64,000 nt of DNA from Aliarcobacter sp. (GTDB lineage: Bacteria > Campylobacterota > Campylobacteria > Campylobacterales > Arcobacteraceae), in NCBI GenBank assembly GCA_028689025.1, contig JAQTXA010000009.1:1-64000 (forward strand), read 5' to 3'. How positions within the stretch are numbered: the stretch's first letter is position 1; the number at the start of each line of letters is the position of its first letter. The translations under genes and the position numbers were made by a program. Below are positions 132 to 7,914 of this stretch, in pieces. A model generated the notes under the pieces. That model ran no database searches and had not been told where the DNA came from. It saw only the letters and a program-made list of their open reading frames with translations.

Positions 132-1502
132 TTAAGATTTAGATTGGAACCAAATCTCACTAAATTTTTTTATAGCATCTTTAATTTCAAACTCTTCAAA
201 TCCGCCAAATCCAAGTGCAATAACTCTTTCCAAATCAAAAAACTCTTTGAAATAAATTTTTACTCCTTTTTGTTTACATAATTCATTTAATTTGTCTAAA
301 TCCATATTTACAAGGGGTTTTATTAAAAGATTTAGTCCACTTCCTTCTCTCAAAATTTCTATTTCATCTTTTAAAAACTCTTTTAAAGTTTCTTTCATTA
401 AATCATGTTTTTTTCTATTTAGGTTTCTTATTTTTCGCAAATGTTTTTCCCAATGACCATCTTTTAGAAATAGTGTTAATGTTTTTTGAATATCTATTGA
501 AACCCCTGAAAATCTAAAGTCAAAAGTTTGATTGTAGATGTTTAATAATGAAGTTGGTAAAACAATATATGATATTCTTAAAGCTGGTGATAAAGTTTTA
601 GAAAAAGTTCCAAGATAGATAATTCTATTGTTATTATTTTCTAAACCTTGAATTGAAGGAATAGGGCGATTATAGTAGCTTAGTTCACTATCGTAATCAT
701 CTTCTATTATAAAAGCATCATTGTTTTTTGCCCAATTTAAAAGTTTTATTCTCTTTGAAATTGGCATTGTAACACCTGTTGGAAACTGATGGGATGGTGT
801 AATATATAAAGCTTTGCAAGCTGTTTTTTCTAAGAGATTTAAATTTAAACCATCAGAATTTATAGAAATATCTTCTATTTTAAAATCAGAAATTTCAAAA
901 ACTTTTCTTGCAACATTATAACAAGGAGATTCTATAGCAATATTATTTGAGAATTTTTTTAAAATTAATGAAACAATAAATAGGCTATCACTAAATCCAC
1001 TAGTAATTATAATTTGTTCACCATTAGATACAACAGCTCTTGAAGATGAAAGGTATTTTGAAATCTCATTTCTAAGCTCTAAATCTCCTTGTTTATCAAA
1101 ATAAGCACCATAATTAATATCACTTTTTATCACTTTATTATATAGCTTTAACCAAGATTGTTTTGGGAAAGAACTTTTTGCTAAATGAGCAGGAAAAAAA
1201 TCTATTTTATAATCAACTTTTAGTTTTTTTTCATCTTTTTGATTATTTAAATTTACTTGAAAATCTTGAATAATATCATCACATACAAAGTAGCCACTAT
1301 TTTTTTTACTTTCAATATAACCTTCTGCGTAGAGTTGATTGTATGCTGCTTGTACAGTTGTTTTACTAAGATTATACTGCGTTGATAGTTTTCTAATTGA
1401 AGGTAATTTTGTTCCAGCTTTTAGTTTTGTTTTTATTTCATCTTTAATTTGTTCATATAGTTGAATATAAAGTGGTGTGCTATTTTGCTCAAATTTATAC
1501 AA
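132..1502 (-). CDS. MocR/PdxR-type GntR-family regulator with aminotransferase domain
   Basis: The 456-residue protein is a transcription regulator of the MocR subfamily: an N-terminal GntR winged helix-turn-helix (about residues 8-75, with an SKTTVQAAYNQL recognition region) joined to a fold-type I aminotransferase-like domain. PLP-site features are visible: TPSHQFPTG near residue 235, EDDYDSE near 267 and the Schiff-base lysine in TFSKTLSPALR (K302). In the family this domain senses PLP or an amino acid rather than acting as an enzyme. It is transcribed divergently from two genes for FMN-binding pyridoxamine-oxidase-fold proteins 95 bp away, so it probably controls them and itself. The effector is unknown; no pdxS/pdxT genes are present here. 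Confidence 0.9.
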   Translation of the reverse strand: MYKFEQNSTPLYIQLYEQIKDEIKTKLKAGTKLPSIRKLSTQYNLSKTTVQAAYNQLYAEGYIESKKNSGYFVCDDIIQDFQVNLNNQKDEKKLKVDYKIDFFPAHLAKSSFPKQSWLKLYNKVIKSDINYGAYFDKQGDLELRNEISKYLSSSRAVVSNGEQIIITSGFSDSLFIVSLILKKFSNNIAIESPCYNVARKVFEISDFKIEDISINSDGLNLNLLEKTACKALYITPSHQFPTGVTMPISKRIKLLNWAKNNDAFIIEDDYDSELSYYNRPIPSIQGLENNNNRIIYLGTFSKTLSPALRISYIVLPTSLLNIYNQTFDFRFSGVSIDIQKTLTLFLKDGHWEKHLRKIRNLNRKKHDLMKETLKEFLKDEIEILREGSGLNLLIKPLVNMDLDKLNELCKQKGVKIYFKEFFDLERVIALGFGGFEEFEIKDAIKKFSEIWFQSKS

Positions 1503-1596
1503 AAGTGTCCTTATTAAATAAATAAAAATTGTATCTTTTCTAAAGTACAGTTATTTGATATTATACGAATGAATTACTTAAAATATAGGAAAAAGA

Positions 1597-1962
1597 ATGA
1601 ATGAAAAAATAGAAAGCATATTAAAGTATGAAGGTATTTTTAGTGTAGTAGCAAAAGGTGAAGATTTCCCACATATTGTAAACACTTGGAATTCTTATGT
1701 GATTTTTAAAAATGGTGAGATTTTTGTTCCAGTTGCAGGAATGAATAAAATGGAAGAGTTACTTAAAAAAGATAACAGAGTTATTGTTGTTATTGGAACA
1801 AAAGAGCTTATGGGACTTCATGGAATGGGAATGGGAATTAAAATAATAGGTTACGCTTCGATTTCAAGTGACACAAAAGAGTATGAAGATTTAAAAGCTA
1901 AATTGGAATGGCCAAGAGCAGTTATGAAAATAGAGATTTTAGAATCATATCAAACTACATAA
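1597..1962 (+). CDS. Pyridoxamine 5'-phosphate oxidase-fold FMN-binding protein
   Basis: This small protein of 121 residues has the split-barrel flavin-binding look of the pyridoxamine 5'-phosphate oxidase-like family: an N-terminal helix, then strands with HIVNTWNSYVIFKNGEIFVPVAG. A methionine/glycine-rich loop (GLHGMGMGIKIIG, about residues 74-86) lies before the last strands. It is preceded by a purine-rich AGGAAAAAGA ribosome site and followed 9 bp later by a second protein of the same fold, so the two form an operon. The divergent MocR regulator points to a link with a pyridoxal- or flavin-dependent pathway, which is inference. The substrate is unknown. Confidence 0.8.
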   Translation: MNEKIESILKYEGIFSVVAKGEDFPHIVNTWNSYVIFKNGEIFVPVAGMNKMEELLKKDNRVIVVIGTKELMGLHGMGMGIKIIGYASISSDTKEYEDLKAKLEWPRAVMKIEILESYQTT

Positions 1963-1971
1963 GGAAAAAAA

Positions 1972-2571
1972 ATGAGAAGAGCTGAATTTGATGTAAAAGA
2001 TGAAAATAGTATAAATGAAGTATTACAAGCTTGTGAATATGGAACTTTAAGTCTGATTAGTGAAGGAAAACCTTATGTTGTTGCTTTGAATTTTGTATTT
2101 TTTGAAAACTCAATTTTTTTTCACGGTGTAAAAGAAGGACGAAAAATTGAAGCTATAAAATCAAATCCTAATGCTTCTTTTTTAGTAGTAAAACCATACT
2201 CTTTTATTCCTTCATATTTTAGTGACACCATGGCTGCTTGTCCTGCAACTCAATTTTTTGCTTCTGTGTTATTTGAAGGAAGAGTTGCTTTTATAGAAGA
2301 TGGAAATATTAAAGCAAAAGTTTTAAATGCTTTAATGAAAAAATTCCAAAGTGAAGATAGTTTTGAAGAAATTGCTTATGAAAAAGCAATGTATACAAAA
2401 ATGTTAGATAAAACAGCTATTTTTGAGTTAAAACCTGAAAATATAAGTTGTAAAATCAAAGTAGGACAAAATTTAAATGAAGAGAAAAAAAACAGGTTGA
2501 TAGAAAAATTAAAAAATAGAGATTCAAAAATAGATGAAGAGACTATAAAACAGATGAACTTACATAGTTAA
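1972..2571 (+). CDS. Pyridoxamine 5'-phosphate oxidase family protein (NimA-like)
   Basis: The 199-residue protein starts MRRAEFDVKDE and contains the pattern typical of NimA-like flavin-binding proteins: CEYGTLSLISEGKPYVVALNFVF near residues 22-44, then FFHGVKEGRKIEAIKSNPNASFLVV (about 49-73). Such proteins bind FMN or haem and are often annotated as nitroimidazole-resistance or general stress proteins. The C-terminal 40 residues are charged and helical. It is the second gene of the operon under the MocR regulator and its stop codon lies within a bidirectional hairpin terminator. The substrate cannot be told from sequence. Confidence 0.8.
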   Translation: MRRAEFDVKDENSINEVLQACEYGTLSLISEGKPYVVALNFVFFENSIFFHGVKEGRKIEAIKSNPNASFLVVKPYSFIPSYFSDTMAACPATQFFASVLFEGRVAFIEDGNIKAKVLNALMKKFQSEDSFEEIAYEKAMYTKMLDKTAIFELKPENISCKIKVGQNLNEEKKNRLIEKLKNRDSKIDEETIKQMNLHS

Positions 2572-2597
2572 AAAAGATTATAAAATCTTTTTTAACT
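2566..2597. terminator. Bidirectional rho-independent terminator
   Basis: A perfect 14-bp stem (AGTTAAAAAAGATT, loop ATAA, AATCTTTTTTAACT) lies between the convergent flavoprotein gene and the RND pump gene. The A- and T-runs in the arms let it work in both directions. It overlaps the final codons and stop of the RND half on the minus strand. Confidence 0.75.
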
Positions 2598-4236
2598 GGT
2601 TTTTGATGATAACTGGCACAAAAAACATAGAAACTACATAAGAGATTAAAGTTCCGCCAATTAGTGCCACTCCAAGACCTCCAAATACTGCATCATTTGC
2701 TATTAATGCACTTGCGAACACCATTGTAAGAACAGTAAGAATAATTGGCTTAGAACGAGTTGCTGTGGCTTTTGCAATAGCTTCATTAATACTCAGTTTT
2801 TTTTCAACTACAAGTTGTTTTGAAAAATCTATAATCAAAGTAGAATTTCTTGAGTTTATTCCAATAAGTCCAATAAATCCTATAAGCGAAGTTGCCGTTA
2901 AATAAAAAGTATCAGTTGTAATCAAATCCATAATTACATGGGCAAAAATAACTCCAATTATTGAGACAAAACTTGATAATACAATTCCCCCAGAAATTGC
3001 AAAACTTTTGTAATACATAACCATTAAAAAGAAAATTAAAACCAAAGCAATTATAAATGCTCCACCTAAATCAATAAATGTATCAATAGTTACTTTTAAT
3101 TCCCCATCAAATACTAAATCAAATTTCTCTTTTGTTTTTTTATCTACAAATGATAGATTTAACATATTTGTTTTTGTTACTTCATAATCTTTTGATAACG
3201 AGTTTAACATCTCATCTCTTGCATTTAAAAGAGGGTAGATTTGACTATCTTTGTTTGTTTCTGCAATTACATTTATCATTAAGTTTAGATTTTTTGATGT
3301 AATTGTTGGCTCTTTTATAATCTCTTTTATTTTTACAAATTCTGAAATACTAACTGTGTTTCCTTGTTTATTTATGATTTTTAGAGTTTGAAGTTTTGCT
3401 TTTAAATCATCTGCTGTTGAGTTTTGTAATAATCTTGAATCATCAAGTCTTAAAAAAATTGGAATTTGATTTTGAGCATTACTTTGATTTATAACAGAAA
3501 CTTTCATTCCCTCAAAGGCTAAAAAAAGTATATTTTTTATTTGTTCTAAATCCACATTACTCATAATTGCTTTTGAATTATCAAGTTCTAGCTCATACAT
3601 CACAAAATCTTTGTCAGCTAAAATATCAATATCAACTAAACTTGTTTGATTTTTAAGTATTTGAGCTATCTTTAAAGCAAAATCTCTTCTACTTTGAAAA
3701 CTCTCTCCACCGTAAATTTCAGTCACGATTGAAGCTAAAACAGGAGGTCCTGCAGGAAGTTCAATAAACTTAATATTTGCATCATATAAAGAAGAACAGT
3801 TCTTTTGAACTTCGTCTCTTAATTGGCTTACTAGATTGTAACTTGTAATATCTCTATCTTCTTGTTTTAAAATATTTACTATCATTTCAGCTTGTGACTC
3901 TTTATCTTTTAGGGCACTTTGTTTCACTAAAGCTGCAAAATCAAGGGGTTGACCTTCACCTAAAAATGCAGAAATATTTGTAATATTTTTATTTTTTTGA
4001 AGATGTTGAGATATACATTGGGTAACTTCTTTTGTTTGATTTATACTTGCCCCATCTTTTAAATCAACATAAATTGAAAAAGTATTTGAATCCTTACTTG
4101 GAAGCATTTTTGCTTTTATAATTTGTGTTGGAAAAGTAGCAAGGCTCAAAATAAACAAAATTAAGGTAATAAAATAAACCATATAAGATTTAAATGGAGT
4201 TTCTAAAATACTATAAATAAATTTTTCTAATCTCAT
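2578..4236 (-). CDS. RND efflux permease, C-terminal half as a separate gene
   Basis: The 552-residue protein matches only the second half of an AcrB/HAE1-type RND pump. It has an initial membrane helix (residues 15-35, equivalent to TM7), a large periplasmic segment with MLPSKDSNTFSIYVDLKDG, and then about five C-terminal membrane helices with the TSLIGFIGLIGINSRNSTLI and RSKPIILTVLTMVFASAL signatures. The N-terminal half is encoded just upstream with an 8-bp gap in another frame. Both genes have their own AGGA ribosome site six bases before ATG, and this gene opens exactly at the natural boundary between the two pump repeats. I therefore read it as a genuinely split pump, although an ancestral frameshift cannot be excluded. 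It is the last gene of the efflux operon. Confidence 0.85.
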   Translation of the reverse strand: MRLEKFIYSILETPFKSYMVYFITLILFILSLATFPTQIIKAKMLPSKDSNTFSIYVDLKDGASINQTKEVTQCISQHLQKNKNITNISAFLGEGQPLDFAALVKQSALKDKESQAEMIVNILKQEDRDITSYNLVSQLRDEVQKNCSSLYDANIKFIELPAGPPVLASIVTEIYGGESFQSRRDFALKIAQILKNQTSLVDIDILADKDFVMYELELDNSKAIMSNVDLEQIKNILFLAFEGMKVSVINQSNAQNQIPIFLRLDDSRLLQNSTADDLKAKLQTLKIINKQGNTVSISEFVKIKEIIKEPTITSKNLNLMINVIAETNKDSQIYPLLNARDEMLNSLSKDYEVTKTNMLNLSFVDKKTKEKFDLVFDGELKVTIDTFIDLGGAFIIALVLIFFLMVMYYKSFAISGGIVLSSFVSIIGVIFAHVIMDLITTDTFYLTATSLIGFIGLIGINSRNSTLIIDFSKQLVVEKKLSINEAIAKATATRSKPIILTVLTMVFASALIANDAVFGGLGVALIGGTLISYVVSMFFVPVIIKNQLKKIL

Positions 4237-4244
4237 CTAATATC

Positions 4245-5804
4245 CTATAAAATTTTTTTAACTAAATAAGGTGTAAAGGCATAAGCCACAAAAAGTGACA
4301 TAGCTAAAGAAATAGGCACAAAAACAGGAAGAGGGTGCATAAATTGCCCCATCATTCCACCTACGAAAAACATAGGAATAAAAGTCATTATAATGGCAAT
4401 TGTTGCAATGTTTGTGGCATTTCCTATCTCATTTGTAGCATTTATTGAAACTATTGAAATATCCATTTCAGGTGATTCCAGTTTATGTCGGTGAATATTT
4501 TCAATTACAATGATTGCAGCATCAACTAACATTCCCAAAGATACAATTAAAGCAAAAAGTGTGATTCTATTTATTGATTCATTAATAACTAATCCAGTAA
4601 AAAGTGTTAAAGATAAAATCATTGGAACCATTAAAGATACAATCATTGCCTCTTTTAATCCAAGTGTAAAAATAAGTAAAATAGCAATGATTACAATAGA
4701 AATCAGTAGATTTGAAACAAGCTCATTTACAGCATTATTCGCAGTATATCCATCATCTCTTGTGATAGTATATTTTATTTTTTTTGCCAATAATTCATCT
4801 TTTATTGAATCCATATATGCAAAAATCTCTTTATTTATTGTAACTGAGTTTCCACCTTTTAGTTTTGAAGCGGTAAGTGTAATTTGATTTGATTCTTCAA
4901 AATCTTCAATAACATCTCGCAAATAAATCAAAGCCTCTTTTTTATTTTGAATATCATAAGACTTCTCAATTTTTGCAATATCTTTTAAATAAATAGGAGT
5001 TTGAAAGTTATAAGAGACAATTAGATTTTCTAAATCTTTTACATTTTCTATGGCTTGTTTTATTCCAAAAACAACTATTGAAGAGTTTTGAGTATTTGTT
5101 GTGATATTTGGAGTTTTATATGAAAGTCCTTGAATTTGTTTCATAACTTGACCCAATGAAAGGTTGTAAGATGATAATTTATTTGCATCAACCATTACAT
5201 TAAATTGCTCTTTTTTTTCACCTTTTAAATCTACTAAAGCAACATCTTTAATCTTATTTATCTCTTTAGTGATTTTATTTATTTCATTGTAAAGCTCGGT
5301 TTGTGAAATCAAATCTTTATCGTTTTCTTTATCACTATAAAATGCAATTGTAGCAATTGGAATATCTGTGTCTATATCCATTGTTTTAATTATTGGTTGC
5401 ATTGCATTTTGTGGCATCAAATCCATATTTCTCATAACTTGATCATAAAGTTTTAGATTTGAAGCCTCTTTATCTTGTCCAATAAAATATTGAACTTGCA
5501 CAATTCCCACTGAATCTTTGGCATAAGAGTAGATGTTTTCAACACCTTTTATCTCTTTTATTTTTTTTTCAAGTGGTTCAATTATTACTTTTTGAATCTC
5601 GCTAGGCTTTGCACCTGGAAGTGCCACGATTACCACACCACCACTTACTTTTATTTGTGGATTTTCTTCTCGTGGCATTATTAAAAGTGAGATATATCCT
5701 AAGGCTAAAATAAAAATACCAAAGATGAATGTTAGTGGATGATTTATAAAAACAAGTGATAATCTTCCAGCTATATTTAAATCTTTATTCAAATTATTAT
5801 TCAT
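4245..5804 (-). CDS. RND efflux permease, N-terminal half as a separate gene
   Basis: This 519-residue protein equals the first half of an RND proton-driven exporter. It has TM1 (about residues 20-40) followed by the LIMPREENPQIKVSGGVVIV start of the porter domain, and PGAKPSEIQKVIIEPLEKKI. The TM2-TM6 block includes SLGMLVDAAIIVIENIHRHK, with the conserved aspartate of the proton-relay helix. It ends at TPYLVKKIL, exactly where full-length pumps continue into the cytoplasmic linker. With the downstream half it would rebuild a pump of about 1,070 residues. It follows the adaptor gene by 8 bp. The substrate is unknown; the porter resembles multidrug more than heavy-metal pumps, though this is weak by eye. 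Confidence 0.85.
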   Translation of the reverse strand: MNNNLNKDLNIAGRLSLVFINHPLTFIFGIFILALGYISLLIMPREENPQIKVSGGVVIVALPGAKPSEIQKVIIEPLEKKIKEIKGVENIYSYAKDSVGIVQVQYFIGQDKEASNLKLYDQVMRNMDLMPQNAMQPIIKTMDIDTDIPIATIAFYSDKENDKDLISQTELYNEINKITKEINKIKDVALVDLKGEKKEQFNVMVDANKLSSYNLSLGQVMKQIQGLSYKTPNITTNTQNSSIVVFGIKQAIENVKDLENLIVSYNFQTPIYLKDIAKIEKSYDIQNKKEALIYLRDVIEDFEESNQITLTASKLKGGNSVTINKEIFAYMDSIKDELLAKKIKYTITRDDGYTANNAVNELVSNLLISIVIIAILLIFTLGLKEAMIVSLMVPMILSLTLFTGLVINESINRITLFALIVSLGMLVDAAIIVIENIHRHKLESPEMDISIVSINATNEIGNATNIATIAIIMTFIPMFFVGGMMGQFMHPLPVFVPISLAMSLFVAYAFTPYLVKKIL

Positions 5805-5812
5805 TTGTTGTC

Positions 5813-6565
5813 CTATTTTATATCCATTGAGATTTTTGAATACATTCCTGGATAGATATTGTAATTTCCTTTATCAAAAGAGATTTTAACCACAAAAGAG
5901 TGAGTCATTCCAGCCATATTTGGAATAATTGCTTCTATTTTTCCTTTTGTTTTAAAATTTTGTGAAGGGATTTCAATATTTACTTCTTGATTTAGTTTTA
6001 CGTCATTTAGATTTGTTTCAGAAATATCGACTTTTATTAAAAGAGATGATAAATCTGTAAGAACAAAAGCTGGAAAACTAGGCATTGCCATTTCACCTGC
6101 TTTTATTGATTTTTTAATAATCAAACCATCATTTGGAGCTTTGATTTTTAAATAATCATACTGAGCATTTATCTCTTTTTGTTTTGTTTTTGTAATAGCT
6201 ATCATATTTTTTGTATTCATTACATTTAACTCAATTTGTTCCAAATCATATTTTGAAACTAAATCTTGCTCTTGTAATCTTTTGTATCTGCTATGATTTA
6301 ATTCTAAATTTTGTAATTGATTTTGTAAAATTTGAAGATTTAATTCTAACTCTTTTTTATTTGAATCAATAGAAGAAGAGTCAATTTCATATAAAATATC
6401 GCCTTTTTTAACAGTTGAACCCTCTGATACATAAACTTCTTTTATAAAACCCATATTTCTGCTTGAGATTATTTTTTCATTGTCAGAAACCACAGTTCCT
6501 GAAAGTTCAAGTTGTGATGCAAATAGATTTACACAAAAAATAGTTGTTAATAGTATTTTTATCAT
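5813..6565 (-). CDS. Efflux periplasmic adaptor (HlyD/AcrA family)
   Basis: The membrane-fusion protein (250 residues) has a Sec signal (MIKILLTTIFCVNLFA) and a lipoyl-like half domain (GTVVSDNEKIISSRNMGFIKEVYVSEGSTVKKGDILYEID). A coiled-coil hairpin (about 70-130) and the second lipoyl half (YDYLKIKAPNDGLIIKKSIKAGEM) follow, then a beta-barrel domain. It is short for the family, lacking most of a membrane-proximal domain. It links the TolC-like channel encoded upstream (4-bp overlap) to the split RND pump downstream. Confidence 0.9.
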   Translation of the reverse strand: MIKILLTTIFCVNLFASQLELSGTVVSDNEKIISSRNMGFIKEVYVSEGSTVKKGDILYEIDSSSIDSNKKELELNLQILQNQLQNLELNHSRYKRLQEQDLVSKYDLEQIELNVMNTKNMIAITKTKQKEINAQYDYLKIKAPNDGLIIKKSIKAGEMAMPSFPAFVLTDLSSLLIKVDISETNLNDVKLNQEVNIEIPSQNFKTKGKIEAIIPNMAGMTHSFVVKISFDKGNYNIYPGMYSKISMDIK

Positions 6566-7914
6566 TGTTTATTTTCCTTATTTATATTTTTTCCTAAAGC
6601 AAGATTTATTTTAGCTAGTGCTAAAGATTTTTCATATCTTGCATCAATTAATAAAGCCTCATTTTTTCTAAAATTTGCTTCTTGAGAAAGTAGGGTTGTC
6701 ATAGAAATTAGATGATTTTGATATAAAAGTTTTGATTGTTCTAAAACATCAGCTGCGAGATTTTTAGCTTCTATTTTCTCTTTTAAAATTTTCTCTTTTG
6801 TTTCAAGATTCAAAGTAGTTTTTTCAAGTTCCAGTTTTATGGCATCTTTTAATTTTTCACTATTTAGTGAAGCTCTTGCGTATTCGATTTTACTTTTTTG
6901 TTTTTCTATATCTCTTGTGTTATCGAATAAAGTAAGATTTATTCCCACAAGTGCCATATAATAATCTTTTTCATCGTCTAAAGTTAATCTATTATCATTA
7001 AATCCATATTCTAAATGGGAATAAATAGTAGGATAATAAGCTGAGTTTGCTATATCAATATTTTTTTTAGTGGCATTGATTTGAATATCTTGCATTTTAA
7101 TCTCATCTCTATTTTCTAAAGCTTGAGTATAAAGTAGATTTTTTTCAGATATTTCAGAATTTATATTTTCAAGAGCTTCAACATCACTAATTGAGTCATC
7201 TGATGATAAAAATCTTAAATATGCCAGTGCTAATTGGAAATTATTGCTAGCTTCAATTAGTTGAGAATTTATATTTAATTCATAAACTTTGGCTTCATTA
7301 ACATCAATTTTTGTTACAAGTCCTTCTTTGTGGAAGGCCTCTGCTGATTTTACTATTTGAGAAATTGCAATTTTTGCTTTTTCTAAAGCACTTACAAACT
7401 CTTTTGCCACAACTGCACTATTGTAAGCTTTTAAAACCTCAATTGTTAACTCTTTTTTATCAAGATTATATTTTATCTCATTTGCTTTTTCTTGAAGTTC
7501 TAAAATATCTTTTTGATTTGAGAGTTTAAATCCTGTAAATAAAGGGACTTCATAAATTAGTTTTGTATTGTAATTGTTTCTAGCATCGGGATAGTTTAAA
7601 TCTCTAGGTTGAACATCCATTCCTTCATTTTGTTGTGCAAATCCGAAATCTCTAAATGTAGCTTCCCTTGAAGATAATTTCGAATTAAAAACATAACCTG
7701 AATGATTAGTTCGGCTTAATTCTTCAGTAATTGAAAGTTTCCCTAAACTTACTGCATCAATAGTTTTTGTATTTAGTTTTGCTAAATCTAAATTTAGTTG
7801 TTGATTTTTTAAATCTTTGTTATTTTCTAAAGTTAAATTCAATATTCTATCAAAATTAACACTTTGGGCATAAGTTGCAGAAACTAACAATAATGATAAA
7901 TAAATCTTATGCAT
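6562..7914 (-). CDS. TolC-family outer-membrane efflux channel
   Basis: The 450-residue outer-membrane factor carries a signal peptide (MHKIYLSLLLVSATYAQS) and two long helical repeats typical of TolC (residues about 25-240 and 245-440), with alternating alanine/leucine heptads and the motif SAYYPTIYSHLEYGFND. It forms the outer-membrane duct for the tripartite exporter. It is the first gene of the minus-strand operon TolC-adaptor-RND(N)-RND(C). The promoter region upstream holds three copies of a ten-base palindrome, a likely operator. Confidence 0.9.
   Translation of the reverse strand: MHKIYLSLLLVSATYAQSVNFDRILNLTLENNKDLKNQQLNLDLAKLNTKTIDAVSLGKLSITEELSRTNHSGYVFNSKLSSREATFRDFGFAQQNEGMDVQPRDLNYPDARNNYNTKLIYEVPLFTGFKLSNQKDILELQEKANEIKYNLDKKELTIEVLKAYNSAVVAKEFVSALEKAKIAISQIVKSAEAFHKEGLVTKIDVNEAKVYELNINSQLIEASNNFQLALAYLRFLSSDDSISDVEALENINSEISEKNLLYTQALENRDEIKMQDIQINATKKNIDIANSAYYPTIYSHLEYGFNDNRLTLDDEKDYYMALVGINLTLFDNTRDIEKQKSKIEYARASLNSEKLKDAIKLELEKTTLNLETKEKILKEKIEAKNLAADVLEQSKLLYQNHLISMTTLLSQEANFRKNEALLIDARYEKSLALAKINLALGKNINKENKQ

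Follow-up and report, generated by a model that had tools for sequence, protein, structure and literature searches.

A tripartite RND efflux pump of Campylobacterota with its permease encoded by two half-length genes, most simply explained by one ancient fission

The analyzed window, a 64,000-nt stretch of the Aliarcobacter sp. contig JAQTXA010000009.1, carries on its minus strand an operon with the gene order OMF, adaptor, N half, C half, in which the permease pair occupies the downstream position. The features of the locus are as follows:

6562..7914, minus strand: TolC-family outer membrane factor (OMF), 450 aa; PF02321 OEP in two stretches, 135.2 bits
5813..6565, minus strand: periplasmic adaptor (membrane fusion protein), 250 aa; TIGR01730 RND_mfp, 128.6 bits against a cut-off of 94.9; HlyD_D23
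4245..5804, minus strand: N half of the RND permease, TM1-6 and the first porter/docking half, 519 aa from an ATG; ORF, ACR_tran, AlphaFold2/Foldseek, D428
4237..4247, minus strand: junction, consisting of the N-half TAG stop (4245-4247) overlapping the Shine-Dalgarno motif (SD, AGGA), the 8-base gap (4237-4244), and the C-half ATG; sequence
2578..4236, minus strand: C half of the RND permease, TM7-12 and the second porter/docking half, 552 aa from an ATG; ORF, ACR_tran, AlphaFold2/Foldseek, R463/R494/D515

In most bacteria, a multidrug-type pump is one long protein. The permease of the window is encoded by two intact, adjacent ORFs in different frames, the first ending after TM6 and the second beginning at TM7 with a start of its own, as an earlier note on this DNA had recognized. 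The N half covers positions 4-487 of the Pfam profile ACR_tran (PF00873, 1021 positions; E 9.9e-74), and the C half covers positions 518-1016 (E 5.4e-37). Since these stretches are complementary, the break sits at the TM6/TM7 boundary, in agreement with the note's placing of it at the internal duplication of RND pumps. Both homologous halves of the permease family, each with six TM segments and a large periplasmic loop, are present according to Pfam, AlphaFold2, and Foldseek; the family trait that is absent is the single chain of ~1,000 residues, in place of which there are 519 + 552 aa, the permease being split in all 68 tallied loci. AlphaFold2 models of each half alone had a mean pLDDT of 85.8 (N) and 85.3 (C). 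The best Foldseek matches were CmeB/AcrB for the C half and AcrD/AdeJ/AcrB for the N half, with TM-scores by query length, among the 50 matches listed, of 0.71-0.79 and 0.62-0.70, respectively; the rmsd of the N-half matches was 6-10 Å, so the N model should not be relied on for the orientation of its domains. Five RND genes elsewhere in the same genome are full-length, and the split is therefore particular to this pump.

The tetramer AGGA lies six bases 5' of the ATG of each half, and that of the C half overlaps the N-half stop codon; both motifs and the 8-bp gap had been read correctly in the earlier note. A total of 68 complete split loci, among them that of the window, were compared. In this set, the start of the C half falls between -14 and +12 bases relative to the N-half stop, with a 4-base overlap in 25 loci, a 1-base overlap in 10, a gap of 8 in 12, and a gap of 9 in 9 (C-half starts were picked by closeness to the window's start, with ATG preferred, and single gap values are approximate). 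An SD-like tetramer precedes the C-half start in 67/68 loci, the control frequencies (loci L009-L084) being 9.5% for random windows and 11.1% for pre-ATG windows, and the relative frame of the two genes (0, 1, or 2) differs by lineage. As all 68 loci show this side-by-side placement with a short gap, the arrangement is not due to chance. The variable gap and frame together with the SD-like motif give the junction the layout of two genes coupled at the level of translation rather than that of a frameshift, and translational coupling of the halves at the junction would be expected.

The split is widely conserved. With the C half as query, 88/104 genomes of the same family contain a match; every match of full coverage falls in an open frame of 546-616 aa, none exceeds 616 aa, and the shorter ones are partial or at contig ends. 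With half-length frames and no full-length form among the matches in these Arcobacteraceae, the pair represents a real, conserved two-gene pump. In the phylum-wide sample, the C half matches 98/298 genomes, of which 90 carry split genes with open frames of 551-676 aa, seven, all from family f5, have only a fused gene of 1,156-1,181 aa, and one (G172) has a remote match of 27%. The split is thus clearly not confined to this strain, the case that the earlier note had named as refuting its reading. The N half matches 96/296 genomes, 89 with split frames of 514-604 aa and seven fused only, in a sample differing by two genomes from that used for the C half. A TAG stop flagged inside the N half of one genome (G015) was not found within residues 5-514 of the match. 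Among the families of the phylum sample without matches are f2 (apart from one remote match) and f3, both small-genome families that possibly correspond to Campylobacter and Helicobacter; if so, this absence could explain why the split has gone unseen in the best-studied species.

Eight genomes (G046, G111, G147, G313, G326, G330, G352, and G371) contain two or more split pairs. Two equal-scoring copies lie 7.2 kb apart in G330, and a divergent pair of G046 (L051) has a C half of 38% identity and Thr beside the TM4 aspartate. A search of a plasmid collection gave 43 matching records, four of which were considered by annotation: two from Campylobacterota are split, and those from Pseudanabaena and Flammeovirga are full-length. 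Independent splits may exist in other groups. The split pairs are LN246_RS15260/RS15265 on a plasmid of Sulfurovum mangrovi and SULKU_RS15365/RS15360 on the Sulfuricurvum kujiense plasmid pSULKU01, and each half carries the RefSeq label "efflux RND transporter permease subunit." Immediately upstream of the S. kujiense pair (L166), a TetR-type regulator takes the place of the OMF and adaptor genes, and TetR, Crp/Fnr, and MarR regulators flank the pair. The plasmid location of L166 suggests that the split pump can move between replicons.

The operon with a periplasmic adaptor and an OMF, typical of the permease family and identified in the window by Pfam and NCBIfam, recurs in the order OMF-MFP-N-C in 20 of the 31 split loci that span 7,500 bases or more, two of the 20 having one more gene in front. 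In the remaining loci, the OMF or adaptor is not recognizable nearby, or the adaptor is located elsewhere. Just downstream of the pump operon of the window (132-2571), a MocR/PdxR-type regulator is divergent from two small proteins of the pyridoxamine-oxidase fold, one of which is weakly similar to the NimABCDEF nitroimidazole reductases (54.4 bits, cut-off 260).

Purifying selection acts on both halves: in comparisons with six relatives (six pairs each), dN/dS was 0.04-0.13 (N half) and 0.03-0.20 (C half). The pairwise distances of N and C halves correlate with r = 0.983 over the 68 split loci, compared with 0.970 within fused pumps and a permuted mean of 0.02. The TM4 aspartate of the N half (D428) is invariant in 68/68 split and 85/85 fused pumps, and the TM10 arginine R463, R494, and D515 of the C half are invariant in all 68 split loci. 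We take D428 to correspond to D407 of AcrB, the second TM4 acidic residue to D408, and the TM10 lysine to K940. By homology to AcrB, the proton relay would be divided between two chains. The second acidic residue and the lysine of the AcrB type are not found: the residue after D428 is Ala in 60/68 split pumps (A429 in the window), Asp in seven, and Thr in one, and Arg occupies the TM10 position in 68/68; in fused relatives, the residue beside the TM4 aspartate is D in 76/85. Since the TM10 Arg also occurs in MexK and TriC, these non-AcrB residues are a subgroup trait and do not exclude the pump from the family, although the Ala beside the TM4 aspartate may entail differences in detail between this proton relay and that of AcrB.

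For the ancestry of the split, one genome per species (84,980 species) was scanned with an alignment of five full-length relatives. The best 80 of the 592 loci obtained are all full-length and come from many phyla; as the query was itself full-length, this count gives no frequency of splits outside the phylum. All split pairs form one clade both in a quick tree of 67 rows (SH-aLRT 100) and in a mixture-model tree of 35 rows with bootstrap (100/100). The sister of this clade consists of full-length pumps of Campylobacterota (97; 99/99 in the two trees), the rest of the pump family, all full-length, lies outside both, and no full-length pump falls within the split clade in either tree; the root rests on distant, long-branch outgroups, which weaken the rooting. 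Between the positions of the window's N-half end and C-half start, four full-length relatives have 16-24 residues, His-rich in several of them. His-rich tails also terminate N halves of other families (e.g., L067, L071, and L073, the last with six consecutive His). These tails are probably remnants of the cytoplasmic TM6-TM7 loop, with metal binding a possibility, and together with the loop of the full-length relatives they indicate that the break most likely occurred inside this loop; the tail was most likely lost later in the window's lineage. Given the position of the split clade among full-length pumps and the persistence of loop remnants, the half-size state is derived. The simplest account would be one ancient fission with no re-fusion in the sample. 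One genome, G303, holds both a full-length (L066) and a split (L067) member, so the histories of duplication and fission overlap.

In our assessment, it is highly probable that the locus encodes a tripartite RND efflux pump of the ordinary, proton-driven kind, with an inner-membrane permease that one ancient fission has left as two stably produced polypeptides. The proposed event would have cut a full-length (~1,100-1,180 aa) Campylobacterota RND permease gene in the cytoplasmic TM6-TM7 loop, with the halves now separated by a stop codon together with a newly arisen start and its ribosome-binding site, and translational coupling would keep the output of N and C matched. The two halves would pair in the membrane into one 12-TM protomer, a heterodimer with the essential TM4 aspartate on the N chain and the TM10 arginine on the C chain. 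Three such pairs would assemble into a six-chain trimer that docks with the adaptor and the TolC-like channel of the same operon and performs proton-driven efflux.

Other explanations fit the data far less well. If a single strain had undergone a recent frameshift, or its sequence contained an error, the locus would be a pseudogene of a full-length pump, like the bepE RND pseudogene of Brucella ovis described in the available part of PMC12306736. This explanation is rejected by the conservation across genomes (90/98 split in the phylum, half-length frames in the 88 matching family genomes) and by the dN/dS range of 0.03-0.20, and the second gene moreover has its own start and SD, in frames that vary by lineage; the probability of this scenario is practically nil. 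The break at the boundary of the internal duplication would also suit a relic of an undifferentiated half-size RND protein predating that duplication, and the earlier note had remarked that the split recalls such an ancestral state. This idea did not survive the trees, which nest the split clade inside full-length pumps with a full-length sister in the same phylum, and it also conflicts with the loop remnants on the N tails and with the fact that each half matches only its own half of the full-length profile. An ancestral-type half-size protein is accordingly rejected as extremely improbable.

A single fused protein might still be produced by programmed frameshifting at the junction or by readthrough of its stop codon, and the short gaps and a few loci in one frame with a stop between the genes (e.g., L016, L021, and L029) make this conceivable. 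Relative frames of 0, 1, and 2 and gaps from -14 to +12 disfavor it, as do the SD-like motif ahead of the second start in 67/68 loci and visual inspection of the printed junctions, which revealed no constant site of slippage or readthrough; we judge it very improbable. Two polypeptides could in principle assemble independently, and the halves could have drifted to separate jobs, for instance each as its own half-size homo-oligomer. This is unlikely, given that N and C occur together and adjacent in the loci read (68 in the tally), that their distances co-vary (r = 0.983), and that the proton-relay residues are shared out between the chains, each set invariant. A more far-reaching version of the two-chain pump, in which the fission itself is functional and creates an obligate 3N+3C hetero-hexamer with half-protomers exchanged or mixed between paralogous pairs, is offered tentatively and seems rather doubtful. 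If it were true, swapping halves between pairs would be a natural route to mixed-composition pumps in the several genomes with two or more pairs.

The usual view of drug-export RND permeases is that full-length chains make up a homotrimer or heterotrimer. The split described here goes back to one ancient event and has since been retained by selection throughout a bacterial order, and such an order-wide natural split suggests that the pseudo-symmetric halves need no covalent link. The direction of the change is fixed, from full-length to split, once. The two-gene permease provides a ready system in which each half can be labeled, mutated, or swapped separately to probe the rotary mechanism. It also carries a warning for annotation, namely that such pairs should not be merged or dropped as frameshifts.

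Our literature search, whose reach excluded most subscription papers, turned up no account of a tripartite RND permease in split form, and the available parts of PMC10872679, PMC8300790, PMC10092412, and PMC2147049 make no mention of one. Among the closest sequence relatives of the split pumps are the full-length "TPREENPQ" RND permeases of Campylobacterota (f5, the second copy of G303, and UBA6016), and further full-length relatives occur in Pseudomonadota, Bacteroidota, Nitrospirota, Cyanobacteriota, and other phyla (L065, L066, L068-L070, and L085-L164). Like the split pumps, these proteins have the TM4 Asp, the TM10 Arg, a TM11 Arg, and D515, and mostly adjoin an OMF and/or adaptor gene; unlike them, they are single polypeptides, mostly of ~1,020-1,180 aa (outliers of 1,327 and 1,354 aa, plus a 930-aa contig-end fragment). 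The fused f5 relatives L065, L068, L069, and L070 have an extra charged N-terminal stretch of ~50-80 aa before TM1, probably a coiled coil, that is absent in split pumps. By sequence, the best solved-structure matches of the C half are MexK (PDB 20yy, 9xwg; 7.9e-22) and TriC (4.8e-17; 6vej, which we take to be this protein), both with an Arg aligned with R463 and, in contrast to the split pump, both full-length single chains. AcrB, AcrD, AdeJ, and CmeB (RND/HAE-1) share the fold of the half models by Foldseek and are likewise single chains, with the second TM4 acidic residue of the AcrB type replaced in the window and in most split pumps by the alanine described above. An AcrB protomer is a duplicated single chain, according to the accessible text of an RND review (PMC8277102).

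Within the RND superfamily, the established split precedent is SecD/SecF, and both halves of the present pump are already annotated generically in RefSeq. Neither half has a Pfam match to the SecD/SecF family, and the N half matches the NCBIfam SecDF model only weakly (25.3 bits against a cut-off of 723). In SecD/SecF, two half-size polypeptides of six TM segments constitute one functional unit (available parts of PMC4139356 and PMC8277102). This system, an aid to protein translocation, is found both fused and separate, and the available part of PMC4139356 proposes that separate genes came first and were fused later, the opposite direction to that of the split pump.
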